Shown here: positions 26,298-57,730 of the stretch, in pieces
How positions within the stretch are numbered: position 1 is the stretch's first letter
Layout of the letters: every line of letters begins with the position of its first letter
Assembly: GCF_003124125.1 (NCBI RefSeq)
Contig: NZ_QCXQ01000002.1
Coordinates: forward strand, 165,437-229,436
Source: Levilactobacillus bambusae
GTDB taxonomy: Bacteria > Bacillota > Bacilli > Lactobacillales > Lactobacillaceae
Direction: 5' to 3'
DNA length: 64,000 bases
Program-made: the position numbers and the translations under genes
Notes under the pieces: generated by a model
What the model saw: only the letters and a program-made list of their open reading frames with translations
The model's database searches: none
Told to the model about the DNA's origin: nothing

Positions 26298-28130
26298 CTA
26301 ATTATTAGACCGATGTTTTTTGATTAGTCCAAACATTACTAATAAACCAACTAAAACTGTAGCACCAATAGCTACTAACCAGTTAGAATTTACCTCACCG
26401 GTTTGTGGTAATTTACCGTTACTAGATTGGTCGTTAGAGGAACTAGTATCGTTATTTACAAAAACATCATCACCCATATGGCTAATTCCTGTAGAGGAAT
26501 CATCGTTGCCTAATTGGCTTGGTAAACTAATGGTGTCCGTGGTATCGGTGGTATCTGTCATACTTGTCGTACCAGTCGTATCAGTTGTACTTGTGGTATC
26601 GGTCGTACTTGTCGTATCGGTTGTACTTGTGGTATCCGTGGTATCAGTCGTATCTGTGGTACTTGTCGTATCTGTCGTACCAGTCGTACTTGTGGTGTCC
26701 GTGGTACTTGTCGTATCTGTGGTATCAGTCGTACTTGTCGTATCGGTAGTGTCCGTGGTACCTGTTGTACTTGTGGTATCCGTGGTATCAGTCGTATCTG
26801 TCGTACTTGTGGTATCGGTAGTGTCCGAGGTATCAGTCGTACCTGTCGTATCGGTTGTACTTGTGGTATCCGTGGTATCAGTCATATCTGTCGTACTTGT
26901 GGTATCCGTGGTATCAGTCGTATCAGTCGTATCTGTCGTATCTGTCGTATCTGTCGTACTTGTGGTATCGGTCGTATCAGTTGTACTTGTGGTATCGGTC
27001 GTATCAGTTGTACTTGTGGTATCGGTCGTACCAGTCGTATCAGTTGTACTTGTGGTATCGGTCGTACCTGTCGTATCTGTGGTATCTGTGGTACTTGTCG
27101 TATCGGTAGTGTCTGTGGTATCAGTCGTACCTGTCGTATCAGTTGTACTTGTCGTATCCGTGGTATCAGTTGAACTAGTGGTATCTGTAGTGTCGGTTGA
27201 ACTGGTAGTATCAGGAGTACTTGAGGTTGAATCCGTCCCATCACCTGTTCCACTACCATTAGCGACTACGCTGGCACTACTGTTAGCCCCATCTCCAACA
27301 CCGTCACCAGTTAAATCAACTGTATTCGAAATCGTAGATCCATCCGAATTTGAATCAGGGGTGGTTGTATAAGTGATATAGACCCCATCTTTAACGGTAT
27401 CACCTAAGGTAAAGGTAACCGTATGACCATCAATCGTAGTTGTAACGGGAACTGTTCCGCCATCTGATTGGAAGTTGTTATTTTCATCAAAACTACCGGT
27501 TGCAACCGTCACACTACCCTCATTAAAGGTTTGATTATCACTCATAATATCTGTAATGACACCATTAACCAAATTGGGGTTGTTCACTGCGACACTCCAT
27601 AGAATAGTTCCGTCATCTTGCCATTGGCCCGTTTTGTTAATTCGCCAATCCGTTTGAGAGTGAGTTGTGGTTCCATTTGCCGTAAATGAAATTTGACCAT
27701 GACGATCAGTGTTACCTATCTTAGATATATTATCATTATACGTAATAGTTCCAGTGTTACTGCCCTTTTTAACGGTAAACGTTCCGATAACGGTTACCCC
27801 ATCTGACGCCTTAATATCGTACGTTCCGTCCTTTGCTACTTGTACATTATCAGGAATAGTAAAGGTAGCTGTATCACCAGCTGAAACGTCTGTACCGTCA
27901 GGAATGGACCAATTATATGTAACATCATATGACGTATTGGTATCCGTTTCACCTCCGGTAACATTTGTCCCGTCGTTTGTGGTAACGATAGCATCGCCTG
28001 CGCCTAATCCGTTAATTCCGGATACCTCGGCGGCTGAAGCAACGCTACTAAAAAATGGTAAAATTAAAGCTGTTATCAAGACTATCACAGCCACAATATG
28101 ACTAAGCCTTTTCCTCAATAACATTAGCAT
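26298..28130 (-). CDS. LPQTG cell-wall anchored adhesin with Ser/Thr/Asp repeats
   Basis: This is a 610-residue surface protein. It has a signal peptide (1-34, ending SSVASAA) and an N-terminal region of about 250 residues resembling the Ig-like ligand-binding modules of MSCRAMM adhesins (YDVTYNWSIPDG, ATFTIPDNVQ, YITYTTTPDS). A stalk from about 298 to 540 is built of DTTSTTDTT-like units. The sortase signal LPQTG (574-578) is followed by a hydrophobic span and a basic tail. The stalk resembles the SD repeats of staphylococcal Sdr proteins. The ligand is unknown. The SD GGAGG is clear. Confidence 0.9.
   Translation of the reverse strand: MLMLLRKRLSHIVAVIVLITALILPFFSSVASAAEVSGINGLGAGDAIVTTNDGTNVTGGETDTNTSYDVTYNWSIPDGTDVSAGDTATFTIPDNVQVAKDGTYDIKASDGVTVIGTFTVKKGSNTGTITYNDNISKIGNTDRHGQISFTANGTTTHSQTDWRINKTGQWQDDGTILWSVAVNNPNLVNGVITDIMSDNQTFNEGSVTVATGSFDENNNFQSDGGTVPVTTTIDGHTVTFTLGDTVKDGVYITYTTTPDSNSDGSTISNTVDLTGDGVGDGANSSASVVANGSGTGDGTDSTSSTPDTTSSTDTTDTTSSTDTTDTTSTTDTTGTTDTTDTTDTTSTTDTTDTTGTTDTTSTTDTTGTTDTTSTTDTTDTTSTTDTTDTTSTTDTTDTTDTTDTTDTTDTTSTTDMTDTTDTTSTTDTTGTTDTSDTTDTTSTTDTTDTTDTTSTTGTTDTTDTTSTTDTTDTTSTTDTTSTTGTTDTTSTTDTTDTTDTTSTTDTTSTTDTTSTTDTTGTTSMTDTTDTTDTISLPSQLGNDDSSTGISHMGDDVFVNNDTSSSNDQSSNGKLPQTGEVNSNWLVAIGATVLVGLLVMFGLIKKHRSNN
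26530..27215. repeat. Tandem repeat tract encoding the Ser/Thr/Asp stalk
   Basis: About 690 bases of near-tandem units are built on GTATC.GT.GTA and GTACTTGT in 9-base steps. Higher-order units of 18-27 bases recur several times. Such a tract is prone to slippage and recombination, so stalk length probably varies between strains. Confidence 0.85.
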
Positions 28131-29575: not shown

Positions 29576-29746
29576 TTCAGGTCCCCTCTTCGCTTGTTTT
29601 AACCAGTATAACATTCACCCCAGTATTTCGTTTAATATCATCGCGATTCTCTGAATTCATTGGTTAAAGGACATGAAGAGTCGCCTTCTTAGTGCACAAG
29701 AAAAACCGAATGCCGGGCCCCGCAGTCCGACATATCAGCAGTCCTG

Positions 29747-29809
29747 TCAATAGTCGATAAAGGCAGTTTCGAAGGGAACTTGGCCTGCCCTCTCGCTAAT
29801 TTTCTCCAT
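29747..29809 (-). CDS. Possible 20-residue peptide ORF
   Basis: ATG at 29809 with GAGGG seven bases before it encodes MEKISERAGQVPFETAFIDY and then a stop. It lies in a GC-richer patch (about 29640-29830) within otherwise AT-rich intergenic DNA upstream of the DegV gene. It could be a leader ORF, a remnant of a mobile element, or chance. No homologue was recognised with certainty. Confidence 0.25.
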   Translation of the reverse strand: MEKISERAGQVPFETAFIDY

Positions 29810-29939
29810 CGTTGATCCCTCACTACTACAATCGTTATATTCGCTTATTTAAATGGTCACAGCATCAACTAGTTAATACTATAACGTTTTTAACTTTTTC
29901 AAAAACTAAATTTGGACGGTAACAAAAAGTTATTTTGTA

Positions 29940-29968
29940 TTGACACGGGTTTTAAATCTTTATATACT
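29940..29968 (+). promoter_or_regulatory. Consensus promoter of the leader-trpXYZ operon
   Basis: TTGACA (29940-29945), a 17-base spacer and TATACT (29963-29968) make this the best sigma-A match in the window. The transcript would begin about 20 bases before the leader peptide ORF. Confidence 0.85.
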
Positions 29969-29996
29969 GATTCCATCAAACATTTCGGAGGAAATT

Positions 29997-30044
29997 ATGA
30001 CAAACACCTTGATCAACGTTAATATTCGTTGGCAAAGCCGGTAA
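29997..30044 (+). CDS. 15-residue leader peptide with a Trp codon
   Basis: ATG at 29997 has a strong SD (CGGAGGAAATT) and encodes MTNTLINVNIRWQSR. The single Trp codon is at position 12 (30030-30032), close to the stop (30042-30044). It lies between a consensus promoter and two terminators ahead of a TrpX-type binding protein, which is the layout of a ribosome-mediated attenuator. That the peptide senses tryptophan is an inference from the Trp codon and the transporter family; it has only one Trp codon. Confidence 0.7.
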   Translation: MTNTLINVNIRWQSR

Positions 30045-30206
30045 ATCAGGCCACGGTTTCAGACGTGACTTGATCAAAGACGATCGATCACGTCTGTGCC
30101 GGTTCATTTACCTATGTCATAATATAGGGCCCGCACGGATTTTTATCCGGTTCAGCGGGCCCTAAACTTTTTTGGGCGACCCAGTTGAACTGGATCGCCC
30201 TTTTTT
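30040..30206 (+). promoter_or_regulatory. Leader RNA attenuator with two tandem terminators
   Basis: GGTAAAT (30040-30046, containing the leader stop) can pair with ATTTACC (30106-30112). This encloses a 9-bp hairpin CAGACGTGA / TCACGTCTG (30060-30096). Terminator 1 (stem 30127-30134 with 30155-30162) and terminator 2 (stem 30174-30179 with 30195-30200) each end in six T. Terminator 2 stops only 23 bases before the trpX ATG. The strand around 30092-30101 can also pair imperfectly with the 5' arm of terminator 1, a candidate antiterminator. No T-box motif is present. Confidence 0.65.
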
Positions 30207-30229
30207 CGTCCCAGCAAAGGAGAGAGTTT

Positions 30230-31225
30230 ATGAAACGTCTACTAAGTTTTATTGCGGCACTAATTGCCTTTTTGGCATTTGCATTTGTCCGTGAAAATCA
30301 CCAACAGACCACCGTAGCAAAAGTTCCAACCGTTGGAATTCTTCAACTCATGTCCCATCCCGCATTGGATTCTATTCACCGCGGAATTATCAAGGGGTTG
30401 GCGGATGAAGGCTACCACGTCGGTAAAAACGTCAAAATTGACTTTCAAAACGCCCAAAACGACCAAAGCAACCTCAAAACGATGAGCACCCGATTCGTGA
30501 ACGAAAATGTTTCCGCAATGATCGGAATTGCGACACCGTCAGCCCAGGCGCTAGCCAACGCCACCACGAAAACCCCCATTATTTTGGGAGCCATTACGGA
30601 CCCTAAGGGCGCTGGCCTCGTTAAAAGCAACACCCATCCCGGGGGAAATATTACGGGCGTGTCTGACCAGGCTCCCTTAGCTGAACAGTTAGATCTCATT
30701 CAAAAAATCATGCCCAACATGAAAACCCTTGGTATTATTTATACGTCATCGGATGATTCAGCTACGGCACAGTACCATAAATTCAAGGCCCTCTGTCAGC
30801 AAAAGCACGTTAACTTAAAGGCATACTCCATTGCCAACACCAACGACTTAAACCAGGTGTCCCAGCAAATGGTGTCTGAAGTCGATGCCGTCTACGTCCC
30901 GACCGATAATACCGTTGCTAGTGCCATGCAAACATTAGTCGCCAATGCCAATCACGCTAAGGTACCCGTCTTCCCGGCCGTCGATAGTATGGTCAAAGCT
31001 GGGGGCGTTGCAACAATGTCCATCAACCAGTACGATCTCGGGGTAGAAACTGGAAAGATGACCGCTAAAATTTTAGCCGGTAAAGCCACCCCAGCTGACA
31101 CCCCCATCCACTTTGTTAAACACGGGGAACTGGTCGTTAATCCGACCCAGGCCGATAAAATTGGGATTACCATCCCGAACTCATTAATTAAGGAAGCTAA
31201 AGCACACGGGGAGGTTGTTCACTAA
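30230..31225 (+). CDS. trpX: ABC importer binding protein, TrpX type
   Basis: This 331-residue protein is of the ABC_sub_bind family (Pfam PF04392 type), with a Type I periplasmic-binding fold. It has an N-terminal membrane anchor (LLSFIAALIAFLAFAFV) without a lipobox Cys. Family segments seen are TVGILQLMSHPALD, GAITDPKGAGLV and NITGVSD. In streptococci such proteins are encoded with TrpYZ and take up tryptophan. The ATG at 30230 has AAAGGAGAG. The frame extends 45 bases upstream, but there it lies in terminator 2. Confidence 0.8.
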   Translation: MKRLLSFIAALIAFLAFAFVRENHQQTTVAKVPTVGILQLMSHPALDSIHRGIIKGLADEGYHVGKNVKIDFQNAQNDQSNLKTMSTRFVNENVSAMIGIATPSAQALANATTKTPIILGAITDPKGAGLVKSNTHPGGNITGVSDQAPLAEQLDLIQKIMPNMKTLGIIYTSSDDSATAQYHKFKALCQQKHVNLKAYSIANTNDLNQVSQQMVSEVDAVYVPTDNTVASAMQTLVANANHAKVPVFPAVDSMVKAGGVATMSINQYDLGVETGKMTAKILAGKATPADTPIHFVKHGELVVNPTQADKIGITIPNSLIKEAKAHGEVVH

Positions 31226-32121
31226 TGAATTTAATCGTATCAGCAATTGGGCAGGGACTACTATGGGCGGTACTCGGAATCGGACTCTTCCTCACCTTTC
31301 GAATTTTAGACTTTCCGGATATGACCGTTGAAGGAACCTTCCCGTTAGGAGCAGCAACCTGTGCGGCAGCCATTGCCAACGGGATGTCACCACTAATGGC
31401 GACCCTCCTTGCCACGGGCGTAGGCGCACTCGCAGGTCTCGTTACCGCCCTCCTCTACACTAAGGGTAAAATTCCAATTTTACTAGCCGGAATCTTGGTG
31501 ATGACGGCGTGTTACTCCATCAATCTCCGGATTATGGGCCGGGCGAACGTTTCCTTAATGGGTAAAATTACCCTCTTTAAGCTCCCATTTTTTGCCCATC
31601 TTCCCATGTACTTCGACAGCGTCTTCCTGGGATTAATCGTGGTTACCCTAGTAACCATCCTAATGATTTATTTTCTCCAGACCGACCTCGGCCAAGCTTT
31701 TATTGCCACCGGCGACAACGACGTGATGGCTCGCTCCATTGGTATTAATACGGATAACATGCAGATTATGGGGTTAATGCTATCCAATGGCCTAATTGGA
31801 CTGGGAGGCGCATTAGTCGCCCAGAACGATGGGTACGCTGACGTCAACATGGGAATTGGTATTATCGTGATCGCCCTAGCCTCAATCATTATTGGCGAAG
31901 TCGTTTTTGGTGAATTAACGTTAAACCAGCGTTTGGTTGCCGTAACCTGCGGCAGTATTCTTTACCGATTCGTTCTTCTGATCGTTCTCCAACTCGGCTT
32001 TAGTGCGAACGACCTTAACTTAATTTCATCTATTGTGCTAGCTCTCTGCATGATGCTGCCCGTCTTCCAAAAGCACCTCAATTTACGGCACCTACTGAAA
32101 CGGGGGTTAACCCATGACTAA
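31225..32121 (+). CDS. trpY: ABC importer permease, TrpY type
   Basis: This 298-residue permease is of the BPD_transp_2-like type with about eight or nine membrane helices and the motif FRILDFPDMTVEGTFPLGA early on. A conserved NGLIGLGGALVAQNDGYADV loop faces the ATPase. It overlaps the trpX stop (TAATG) and the next ATPase gene by eight bases, so the three products are made together. The substrate is inferred to be tryptophan or a related aromatic compound from the leader and family. Confidence 0.82.
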   Translation: MNLIVSAIGQGLLWAVLGIGLFLTFRILDFPDMTVEGTFPLGAATCAAAIANGMSPLMATLLATGVGALAGLVTALLYTKGKIPILLAGILVMTACYSINLRIMGRANVSLMGKITLFKLPFFAHLPMYFDSVFLGLIVVTLVTILMIYFLQTDLGQAFIATGDNDVMARSIGINTDNMQIMGLMLSNGLIGLGGALVAQNDGYADVNMGIGIIVIALASIIIGEVVFGELTLNQRLVAVTCGSILYRFVLLIVLQLGFSANDLNLISSIVLALCMMLPVFQKHLNLRHLLKRGLTHD

Positions 32122-32884
32122 ACCACTCTTAGAAATGAAAAACATTGTGACCACGGTCAACACGAATACGCCAGAACAAAAAACCATTCTAAACCACCTG
32201 AATCTAACCATTAACGAGGGGGACTTTATTACGGTTTTAGGCTCAAACGGGGCCGGAAAATCCACCCTCTTCAATACCATTGGTGGCAATTTACGGGTTA
32301 ACGGCGGGAAGATTCTCCTTCACGGCCAAGACATCACCCAAACCTCCGAGGAAAAACGGACCCAGTTTCTCAGTCGCGTCTTTCAGGACCCCAAGATGGG
32401 AACTGCGCCCCGTATGACGGTGGCCGAAAATCTCTTGCTGGCTTTACACCGGGGTGAACGGCGCCGGCTTGTTCCCCGCCGGTTGAATCGTGAACTCCCC
32501 CGCTTCAAGTCACTGACCGCATCCATGCACAACGGCCTGGATACCCGGTTGAAAACGCCAACCGAAAATCTTTCGGGGGGACAACGGCAGGCCTTAAGCT
32601 TTCTAATGGCAACCCTCAAGCGGCCTGAACTTCTCCTTCTCGATGAACATACGGCAGCCCTCGATCCGAAAACCAGCCAACAGCTCATGCAGTTGACGGA
32701 CGACCGGATTACGACCGAAAAATTAACCTGCCTGATGATCACCCACCAGTTAGAAGACGCCCTTAAATATGGTAACCGACTCATTGTCCTTCATCAGGGA
32801 CAAATCGTTTACGATATTGCAGGCGAAGCCAAGGCTCAGTTGACGGCAGAAGAACTCTACCAATTTTTTGCGGATACGGAGTAA
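32114..32884 (+). CDS. trpZ: ABC importer ATPase, TrpZ type
   Basis: This 256-residue ABC ATPase has Walker A GSNGAGKST, the Q-loop VFQDPKMGTAPRMT, signature LSGGQRQALSFLMA and Walker B LLLLDEHTAALDP. His replaces the usual Pro in the DEPT motif; this is common in this subfamily rather than a defect. The H-loop is MITHQLEDAL. The gene ends the operon. A repeat hairpin (copy 2) starting about 70 bases later probably serves as terminator. Confidence 0.86.
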   Translation: MTKPLLEMKNIVTTVNTNTPEQKTILNHLNLTINEGDFITVLGSNGAGKSTLFNTIGGNLRVNGGKILLHGQDITQTSEEKRTQFLSRVFQDPKMGTAPRMTVAENLLLALHRGERRRLVPRRLNRELPRFKSLTASMHNGLDTRLKTPTENLSGGQRQALSFLMATLKRPELLLLDEHTAALDPKTSQQLMQLTDDRITTEKLTCLMITHQLEDALKYGNRLIVLHQGQIVYDIAGEAKAQLTAEELYQFFADTE

Positions 32885-49435: not shown

Positions 49436-49450
49436 ATGGGTATCGAAATT

Positions 49451-49517
49451 ATCTGGGGTGCCATTTGGCTGAGATCAAACCCATTGAACCTGATCTGGTT
49501 AATACCAGCGAAGGGAG
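49451..49517 (+). promoter_or_regulatory. TPP (THI-box) riboswitch aptamer
   Basis: The conserved THI-box elements occur in order: GGGGTGCC, GGCTGAGA, ACCC, then TTGAACCTGATCTGGTTAAT, ACCAGCGAAGGGA. Thiamine pyrophosphate binding would favour the terminator at 49549-49577 and switch off ykoEDC-tenA. Of the 428 bases between the HAD and ykoE genes, nothing else but the promoter was found in the first 200. Confidence 0.95.
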
Positions 49518-49548
49518 ATGCGATCACATCATAACCTGCTATGGACAG

Positions 49549-57559: not shown

Positions 57560-57589
57560 AAGAACACATCAAAACACTAATATATTTTT

Positions 57590-57664
57590 CATTGCCTATA
57601 TAATGTCATGATATGGATGACGAGTTTCTACCCAGAACCGTAAATTCTGGACTATAAGCAAATT
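57590..57664 (+). promoter_or_regulatory. Purine riboswitch aptamer, guanine class
   Basis: The purine aptamer core is visible: TATAATGTCATGATATGG, the L2 region, then AGTTTCTACC, a P3 stem CCAGAACCGTAAATTCTGG and GACTATA closing P1. The base that pairs with the ligand is C (GACTAT, where adenine aptamers have GATTAT), so guanine, hypoxanthine or xanthine is sensed. Ligand binding should favour the terminator at 57731-57757 and lower pbuX. Confidence 0.93.
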
Positions 57665-57730
57665 GAGCCTCGAACTCTTTTTGCCAACGAGTTCGTTGGC
57701 AGACTGTTCTTAAATCTACGAACTTTTGTA

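Follow-up and report, generated by a model that had tools for sequence, protein, structure and literature searches.

We found that the region upstream of trpX in the window, a 64,000-nucleotide stretch of Levilactobacillus bambusae DNA, very probably encodes a ribosome-mediated transcription attenuator for tryptophan uptake, as judged from comparison of sequences. The Rfam families RF04312 ('trpB motif') and RF02863 ('Enterococcus sRNA 2410') probably represent one old, portable leader-peptide attenuator of the Firmicutes, which would have been retuned to Trp, Phe/Tyr, Leu and His by joint exchange of the leader codons and of a pairing strand. The same reading includes a relay, in which the choice between pairings 1:2 and 2:3 would set that between 3:4 and 4:5, then that between 5:6 and 6:7, and so act on a terminator at least ~100 nt downstream, the middle hairpin of the Phe form serving as a relay only.

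Inspection of the region showed that the promoter, the Shine-Dalgarno (SD) sequence, the 15-codon Trp leader ORF, the hairpins and the two terminators read by the first-pass annotation were all in place (Table 1), and the TrpXYZ-type importer it had placed downstream was borne out by a TrpX over the NF041285 cut-off, followed by a permease and an ATPase. Similar promoter boxes, judged by eye, preceded the leader in relatives. The T-run of T2 ends 23 bases before the trpX ATG. The RNA from 29975 to 30231 folded at -101.2 kcal/mol, compared with -63.5 (sd 4.8) for 200 shuffles (z -7.9). A simple terminator scan called neither T1 nor T2. Matches to RF00519 across T1-T2 (20.8 bits, cut-off 41) and to isrJ (16.8 bits, cut-off 37) were rejected as chance.

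Table 1. Features of the leader region and the operon behind it, in window coordinates
Feature	Position	Strand	Remarks
Sigma-70-type promoter, TTGACA-17-TATACT	29940..29968	+	11/12 consensus matches; -35 TTGACA at 29940-29945, -10 TATACT at 29963-29968, spacing 17 nt
Shine-Dalgarno of leader ORF	29987..29994	+	
Leader peptide ORF MTNTLINVNIRWQSR	29997..30044	+	15 codons; C-terminal RWQSR in 35/35 congeners
Regulatory Trp codon	30030..30032	+	sole Trp codon of the leader ORF; kept in relatives
Segment 0 (CAAAGCCGGTAAAT)	30033..30046	+	pairs with segment 3 when ribosome-free; 0:3 own -13.8 kcal/mol
Hairpin A, segments 1:2	30045..30074	+	directly after leader stop; overlaps stronger hairpin B
Hairpin B, segments 2:3	30060..30096	+	counterpart of RF04312 P1
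Segment 3 shoulder (UCUGUGCCGGUUCAUUUA)	30093..30110	+	partner of segments 0 and 4; aligned to RF04312 consensus
Terminator T1, segments 4:5, plus T-run	30125..30173	+	hairpin 30125-30164, T-run end 30173
Terminator T2, segments 6:7, plus T-run	30174..30206	+	hairpin 30174-30200, six T to 30206; 5' side can pair with segment 5
trpX, tryptophan ABC transporter substrate-binding protein	30230..31225	+	NCBIfam equivalog NF041285, 494.4 bits, cut-off 390
trpY, permease	31225..32121	+	PF02653, BPD_transp_2
trpZ, ABC ATPase	32114..32884	+	PF00005

Comparison across homologous loci, which the first-pass annotation had proposed, showed that the leader peptide and its Trp codon are conserved. Of the 35 congeners, 27 were reached by DNA search, the aligned DNA being 67-76% identical to the window, and the leader ended in …RWQSR* in 27/27; the remaining 8 congeners, reached via TrpX, carried …RWQSR* in 8/8. 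The best 80 of 112 TrpX loci found were then read, comprising 72 from Lactobacillaceae and 8 clostridial or unassigned ones. A W leader was present at 71 of these 72 Lactobacillaceae loci (69 WQ, 1 WH and 1 WR), five of the leaders lying ~690 nt or more upstream; the lone locus lacking one was L216, and none of the 8 clostridial or unassigned loci had a convincing W leader. The 71 of 72 loci contradict the earlier view that this design is seldom met in Lactobacillaceae, and they suggest that leader-peptide attenuation is frequent in a group for which T-boxes are the better-known device. It had also been supposed that a single Trp codon might mean another sensing mode, which is not implied, as one Trp was usual in the Lactobacillaceae loci read. 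Ends of the WQSR* type are typical of Lactobacillaceae, and therefore the single Trp of the window is an ordinary form; the second Trp codon of WQSWRR, TGG, is CGG (Arg) in WQSR*.

Alignment of 30056-30172 to the full length of the RF04312 model (107 positions) gave 28.3 bits (E 0.1 and 0.04), which falls short of the gathering cut-off of 59 bits. The P1 hairpin with its GG shoulder, followed by a terminator, was present in the window, some of the pairs being non-standard, and another locus of the window's own family f1 scored 86.6 bits. Judging from its sequence, the window region is a diverged cousin of RF04312. The description in PMC11109978 makes RF04312 a strong riboswitch candidate, a classic attenuator not being ruled out, and counts over 900 representatives among Firmicutes and Fusobacteria, mostly upstream of an uncharacterised ABC transporter; as there described, the motif comprises two hairpins with a single terminator, and a leader ORF is absent from the description. 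The window resembles the motif in hairpin B, the GG-containing shoulder, the following terminator and the type of transporter downstream, and differs from that published description in its sub-threshold score, its leader ORF and its second terminator. In the open-licence literature, PMC11109978 was the only report found on the 'trpB motif' or RF04312, and among the papers listed there none described a leader-peptide attenuator for Trp in lactic acid bacteria (most subscription papers and all preprints lie outside it).

Of 395 Lactobacillales genomes, 210 had RF04312 matches (59 over the cut-off). The leader was read at 90 of the places listed, namely the top 30 loci and a further 60 chosen for diversity. 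An SD-led leader with Trp ended close to the motif at 88 of the 90 places, compared with 56 of 1800 shuffles, and a WQ-containing leader was found at 80 of 90, compared with 1 of 1800, the shuffle control covering these Lactobacillales RF04312 places. The two exceptions were L084, which has a Phe/Tyr leader, and L095, which reads ...HWQSR* by eye and fails the SD rule. The usual leader ends were WQNWRR* and WQSWRR*, and those of Lactobacillaceae and most family f5 loci were WQSR*, WQSH* or alike. Six Trp-leader loci sat before trpB-like genes (L040 checked, over the cut-off). A scan of 398 genomes across the phylum gave four RF04312 matches: the order and family f143 had one each, and the other two lacked a sensible leader. 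At the top RF04312 place (L034 of genome G494, 86.6 bits), the next ORF by eye resembles a group II intron reverse transcriptase, not a transporter, and a second RF04312 copy in G494 (L067) lies upstream of a TrpX gene (by eye). In L077 (G775), a Trp leader, ...NTRWQSH*, and an RF04312 place precede a gene for an oligopeptide-binding-like protein (by eye), a hint that peptide uptake may be under Trp control.

In the Phe-leader loci L123 and L124, RF02863 scored 60.7 and 61.7 bits (cut-off 61) and coincided in position with RF04312. Of 395 Lactobacillales genomes, 214 had RF02863 matches (98 over the cut-off), and there was no match in the window's genome. Leaders rich in F and Y, e.g. …FYFSYFR*, were found at 29 of the 30 best RF02863 loci and 18 of 20 hand-picked ones (47/50 overall). 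The genes behind them encode TrpX paralogues, aroE-like proteins (two checked, over the TIGR00507 cut-off) and a prephenate-dehydratase-like protein, that of L317, scoring 188 bits (cut-off 219). The hairpin order was the same as in the Trp form in the parseable loci (37/58), and the middle hairpin lacked a T-run in 36 of the 37 loci parsed; the 21 of 58 loci dropped, including all five from Levilactobacillus, had no recognised shoulder, middle hairpin or terminator. From these sequences, RF02863 looks like the Phe/Tyr form of the RF04312 switch. It shares with the window the hairpin order and, through L123/L124, the overlap with RF04312, and differs in being filed as an sRNA gene, in its Phe/Tyr codons and in having the last hairpin alone as a terminator in 36/37 loci. 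The sRNA is given in PMC5593968, in the part available, as 195 nt with two transcripts on Northern blots, a size and pattern that would fit a prematurely ended leader without being proof of one. The two bands need not correspond to two terminators, because the middle hairpin of the Phe form rarely has a T-run.

Leaders with other codons were also found beside genes related to trpX. The TrpX paralogue of L084, which is 37% identical to the window's TrpX and scores 319 bits (under the TrpX cut-off of 390), has the leader …HFYFSYFRYSL* with no Trp, whereas TrpX of the same genome keeps …WQSWHR…. Among 11 Phe-type TrpX paralogues of family f7 (at least 50% identical), 7 showed the L084-type leader in full, L126 showed only the leader end, and L130, L131 and L146 had no leader in the stretch examined. 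Five of five Levilactobacillus TrpX paralogues, 39-40% identical and lying 1.8-3.4 kb from trpX in divergent orientation, had the leader …FAFSFFFR*. In family f143 (same phylum, presumed Clostridia), RF04312 matches were present in 16 of 79 genomes, all under the cut-off, and a leader ended near the motif at 26 of 27 new loci. Runs of His codons stood ahead of hisS-like genes (of which L163 was checked and was over the TIGR00442 cut-off) and of a hisZ-like gene (L153, at 218 bits against a cut-off of 272), runs of Leu ahead of sodium-dependent transporters (for L161, which was checked, LeuT is one of the PDB relatives, with glycine and dopamine transporters scoring higher), and runs of Phe or Tyr ahead of other transporters. 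By sequence assignment, the leader codons thus match gene function where it is known: Trp with trpX and trpB, Phe/Tyr with aroE and a prephenate-dehydratase-like gene, and His with hisS and a hisZ-like gene. The match is tested by trpX, trpB, hisS/hisZ, aroE and prephenate dehydratase only. Leader codons may in turn predict substrates of uncharacterised importers, e.g. Phe/Tyr for the TrpX paralogues. The Tyr/Phe leader ahead of a BrnQ-type carrier (L157 of G873, TIGR00796 over the cut-off) hints that the substrate may be aromatic, and TrpY-like permeases at L171, L177, L179 and L167 follow leaders ending VVFNSQFR, VVFSSQFR or similar, in which Val and Phe codons are mixed. Firmicutes attenuators with His-codon leaders before hisS*, hisZ or his operons have been described (PMC2965389, PMC9413887) and may overlap with the His class found here; the parts of those reports available make no tie to RF04312 or to Trp, Phe and Leu versions.

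Pairing was examined by cutting each locus into segments 0 (Trp codon to stop) through 7 (3' arm of T2) and comparing each segment's own partner with partners swapped in from other families. Of 121 loci, 112 were kept, and 39 of them served as representatives: roughly one from each genus, with three Levilactobacillus loci and the window added. Faulty terminator calls led to the removal of L009, L020, L021, L027, L078 and L087, and the want of a T1 call to that of L115; L032 and L033 (weak matches with no W leader) were excluded beforehand, and the T1 segment of the window, missed by the segment caller, was set by hand. The own partner was stronger for 0:3 in 34/39 (p 2e-6), for 1:2 in 35/39 (p 5e-9), for 3:4 in 31/39 (p 1e-4) and for 5:6 in 35/35 (p 6e-11), these p values being optimistic because related loci are not independent. 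The own pairings 2:3, 4:5 and 6:7 were also stronger (39/39 and 35/35), an advantage partly built in because the hairpins were located by folding each locus. In eight control segment combinations, the own partner was no better than the swapped ones among the 39 representatives. Stems compared across homologous loci thus showed locus-specific 0:3, 1:2, 3:4 and 5:6 pairing, that of 0:3 extending across families and codon classes. In the window itself, the own 3:4 pairing was -19.8 kcal/mol.

Swapping between codon classes (69 loci) showed that the own shoulder paired better on average for Trp, Phe, Tyr, Leu and His, clearly in four classes and slightly for Leu. The median share of other-class shoulders that paired as well as the own was 0.03, with a share above 0.6 at several loci (L041, L057, L076, L108, L113, L117 and L170). 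For Leu shoulders, pairing was stronger with the leaders of the Phe and Tyr classes than with those of their own class.

Two terminator-like hairpins were called at 95 of 118 loci, one at 21 and three at 2, some of the calls being wrong and later dropped. Pairing 5:6 joins segment 5 (the 3' arm of T1) to segment 6 (the 5' arm of T2), and its own value was -13.5 versus -8.8 for the control in 35/35, or -8.9 versus -6.0 with the T-run removed (34/35). Were 5:6 a mere trace of T1-T2 duplication, 4:7 would be expected as well; this pairing was barely above control (-7.5 versus -6.5, 22/35, p 0.02), a result that argues against duplication alone. In the Phe-type set, the own 5:6 was better at 23 of 27 distinct loci (p 1.5e-4), and the middle hairpin of that form, having no T-run, could only hand on a choice. 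Pairing 5:6 connects the two terminators, and through it a choice taken at the leader could be relayed along the RNA. The serial terminators noted in the first-pass annotation look coupled rather than simply additive. This relay is the most unusual feature of the RNA, and its alternative hairpins are a design directly testable by compensatory mutants.

The region had been read in the first-pass annotation as a ribosome-mediated attenuator and not a T-box, and this reading is well supported by the conservation, by the codon swaps in related loci and by the locus-specific alternative pairings; it very probably holds for the family and for the window. A short translatable ORF with codons for the operon's amino acid was present, as were mutually exclusive hairpins including a terminator and an antiterminator, the pairing 3:4 not having been chosen by folding. 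From the conserved leader with its Trp codon, the locus-specific pairings and the function-matched codon swaps, all established by comparison of sequences, we infer an order of events and a response to tryptophan. When Trp-tRNA is short, a ribosome stalled at the Trp codon would cover segment 0 and 1:2 would form; segment 3, thus freed, would pair with 4 (antiterminator 1), and segment 5, freed in turn, would pair with 6 (antiterminator 2), so that both terminators would open and the operon would be ON. When Trp is plentiful, the ribosome at the stop would cover 0 and 1, and 2:3, then 4:5 and 6:7, would form (OFF). With no ribosome, 0:3 pairing would keep 3 from 4, and OFF is expected; this is the least certain step. 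Two orphan RNAs would thereby gain a concrete mechanism, namely the riboswitch candidate, of which over 900 representatives have been published, and the small RNA of enterococci. The trp and his attenuators of Escherichia coli likewise have regulatory codons in a short leader, the position of the ribosome selecting terminator or antiterminator. Unlike in those systems, segment 0 within the leader codons here competes for the antiterminator strand, the signal would travel via a further hairpin to a second terminator, and one scaffold serves several amino acids.

The effect of ribosome position was modelled by folding the RNA of 109 loci ended after segment 4, with the ribosome-covered 5' part removed. 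The mean number of predicted 3:4 pairs was 10.7 with the ribosome at Trp, 5.6 at the stop and 3.8 with none. More pairs were predicted at Trp than at the stop at 99 of the 109 loci, and more than with no ribosome at 104 of 109, the window not following. At least 4 predicted 3:4 pairs formed at 104 of 109 loci in the Trp state, still at 78 in the stop state and at 53 with no ribosome; the predicted switching is partial at many loci. For the congeners L002, L019 and L028, the Trp position was predicted to give 1:2 and 3:4, and the stop position 2:3. Their ribosome-free fold was mixed (0:3 + 2:3 in L019 and L028, 1:2 + 3:4 in L002), and the naked RNA of L030, L039 and L043, from other families, gave 0:3, 1:2 and both terminators. 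In four loci folded in full, the terminators won in each state; we therefore propose that the switch must be kinetic.

The window's own copy behaved differently from the loci around it, with 0.2 predicted 3:4 pairs with no ribosome, 4.6 at Trp and 8.9 at the stop. Hairpin B (2:3) formed in every truncated state, and 1:2 was the weakest and 3:4 the second weakest of 24 congeneric loci. The strength of hairpin B, together with this weakest 1:2, accounts for the lack of predicted switching in the window. Since 2:3 dominates at all ribosome positions tested, anti-termination is predicted to be weak, and the dynamic range may be small. The models would be accounted for in either of two ways: 1:2 forms first during transcription, or the lineage has drifted towards repression. 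The 'tight repression' of the first-pass annotation may hold, as the window copy models as OFF-biased, for a reason other than the serial terminators it had given. A further step along the second line would make the leader and hairpins of the window lineage a drifted, mostly terminating remnant, with the operon expressed via read-through, which is compatible with the family being an attenuator and which we consider unlikely. The weakest 1:2 of the genus set, the dominant 2:3 and a genome of 1.97 Mb, smaller than most congeners searched, speak for such a remnant, whereas the retention of pairings 0:3, 3:4 and 5:6 despite the divergence of the DNA from congeners (67-76% identity), together with an intact promoter, SD, leader, Trp codon, T1 and T2, speaks against it.

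In TnaC, a Trp-dependent leader peptide also stands ahead of a transcription decision. An arrest of that type would have the WQSR peptide sense free tryptophan in the tunnel, stall at the stop and mask segment 1 when tryptophan is high. The single Trp in a conserved context (WQS followed by R or W) agrees with this, and stalling at the stop would lead to the same OFF state. The Q-S codons of WQSR, however, are CAA-AGC and lie inside segment 0, where they can pair with the conserved shoulder, and the letters AGC are kept in the Leu class, out of frame; the peptide conservation is therefore at least partly RNA conservation. In the other classes, the leader simply repeats the matching codon. Unlike in TnaC, the conserved letters here would be explained by codons and RNA pairing, not by the peptide, and peptide arrest is improbable here.

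Slightly less probable still is a riboswitch, in which tryptophan or another ligand would bind to the P1 hairpin and thereby set the terminator, the upstream ORF being incidental. This is the idea put forward for RF04312 (PMC11109978, as far as that description goes), and it draws on the well-conserved P1 hairpin and on the alignment of the window to the full model, below threshold. It sits poorly with the SD-led Trp leaders that end at the motif in 88/90 places, with hairpins that are kept while the leader codons shift from Trp to Phe, Tyr, Leu and His in step with the gene where its function is known, and with a shoulder that varies together with those codons. A T-box leader for tRNA-Trp, like that reported in the available part of PMC9382623 for Streptococcus suis trpXYZ, has next to no likelihood: in line with the earlier claim of no T-box motif, covariance-model scans gave no T-box at gathering level in the whole 64-kb window and none at E up to 10 within 29600-30400, six Lactobacillaceae TrpX loci scanned had none on the gene's strand, a sub-threshold match at L207 lay on the strand opposite to the gene, and the same scan did detect T-boxes upstream of Christensenella TrpX (L250).

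The T-box matches before the Christensenella TrpX are in tandem, at 830-997 and 1021-1265 of L250, one over the cut-off and one under. Elsewhere in the window, TPP and purine riboswitches were found over the Rfam cut-offs at 49444-49533 and 57576-57674, and 26298-28130 on the minus strand encodes a protein that by eye resembles those of the cell surface, having long repeats of Thr/Asp and an LPQTG-like end.
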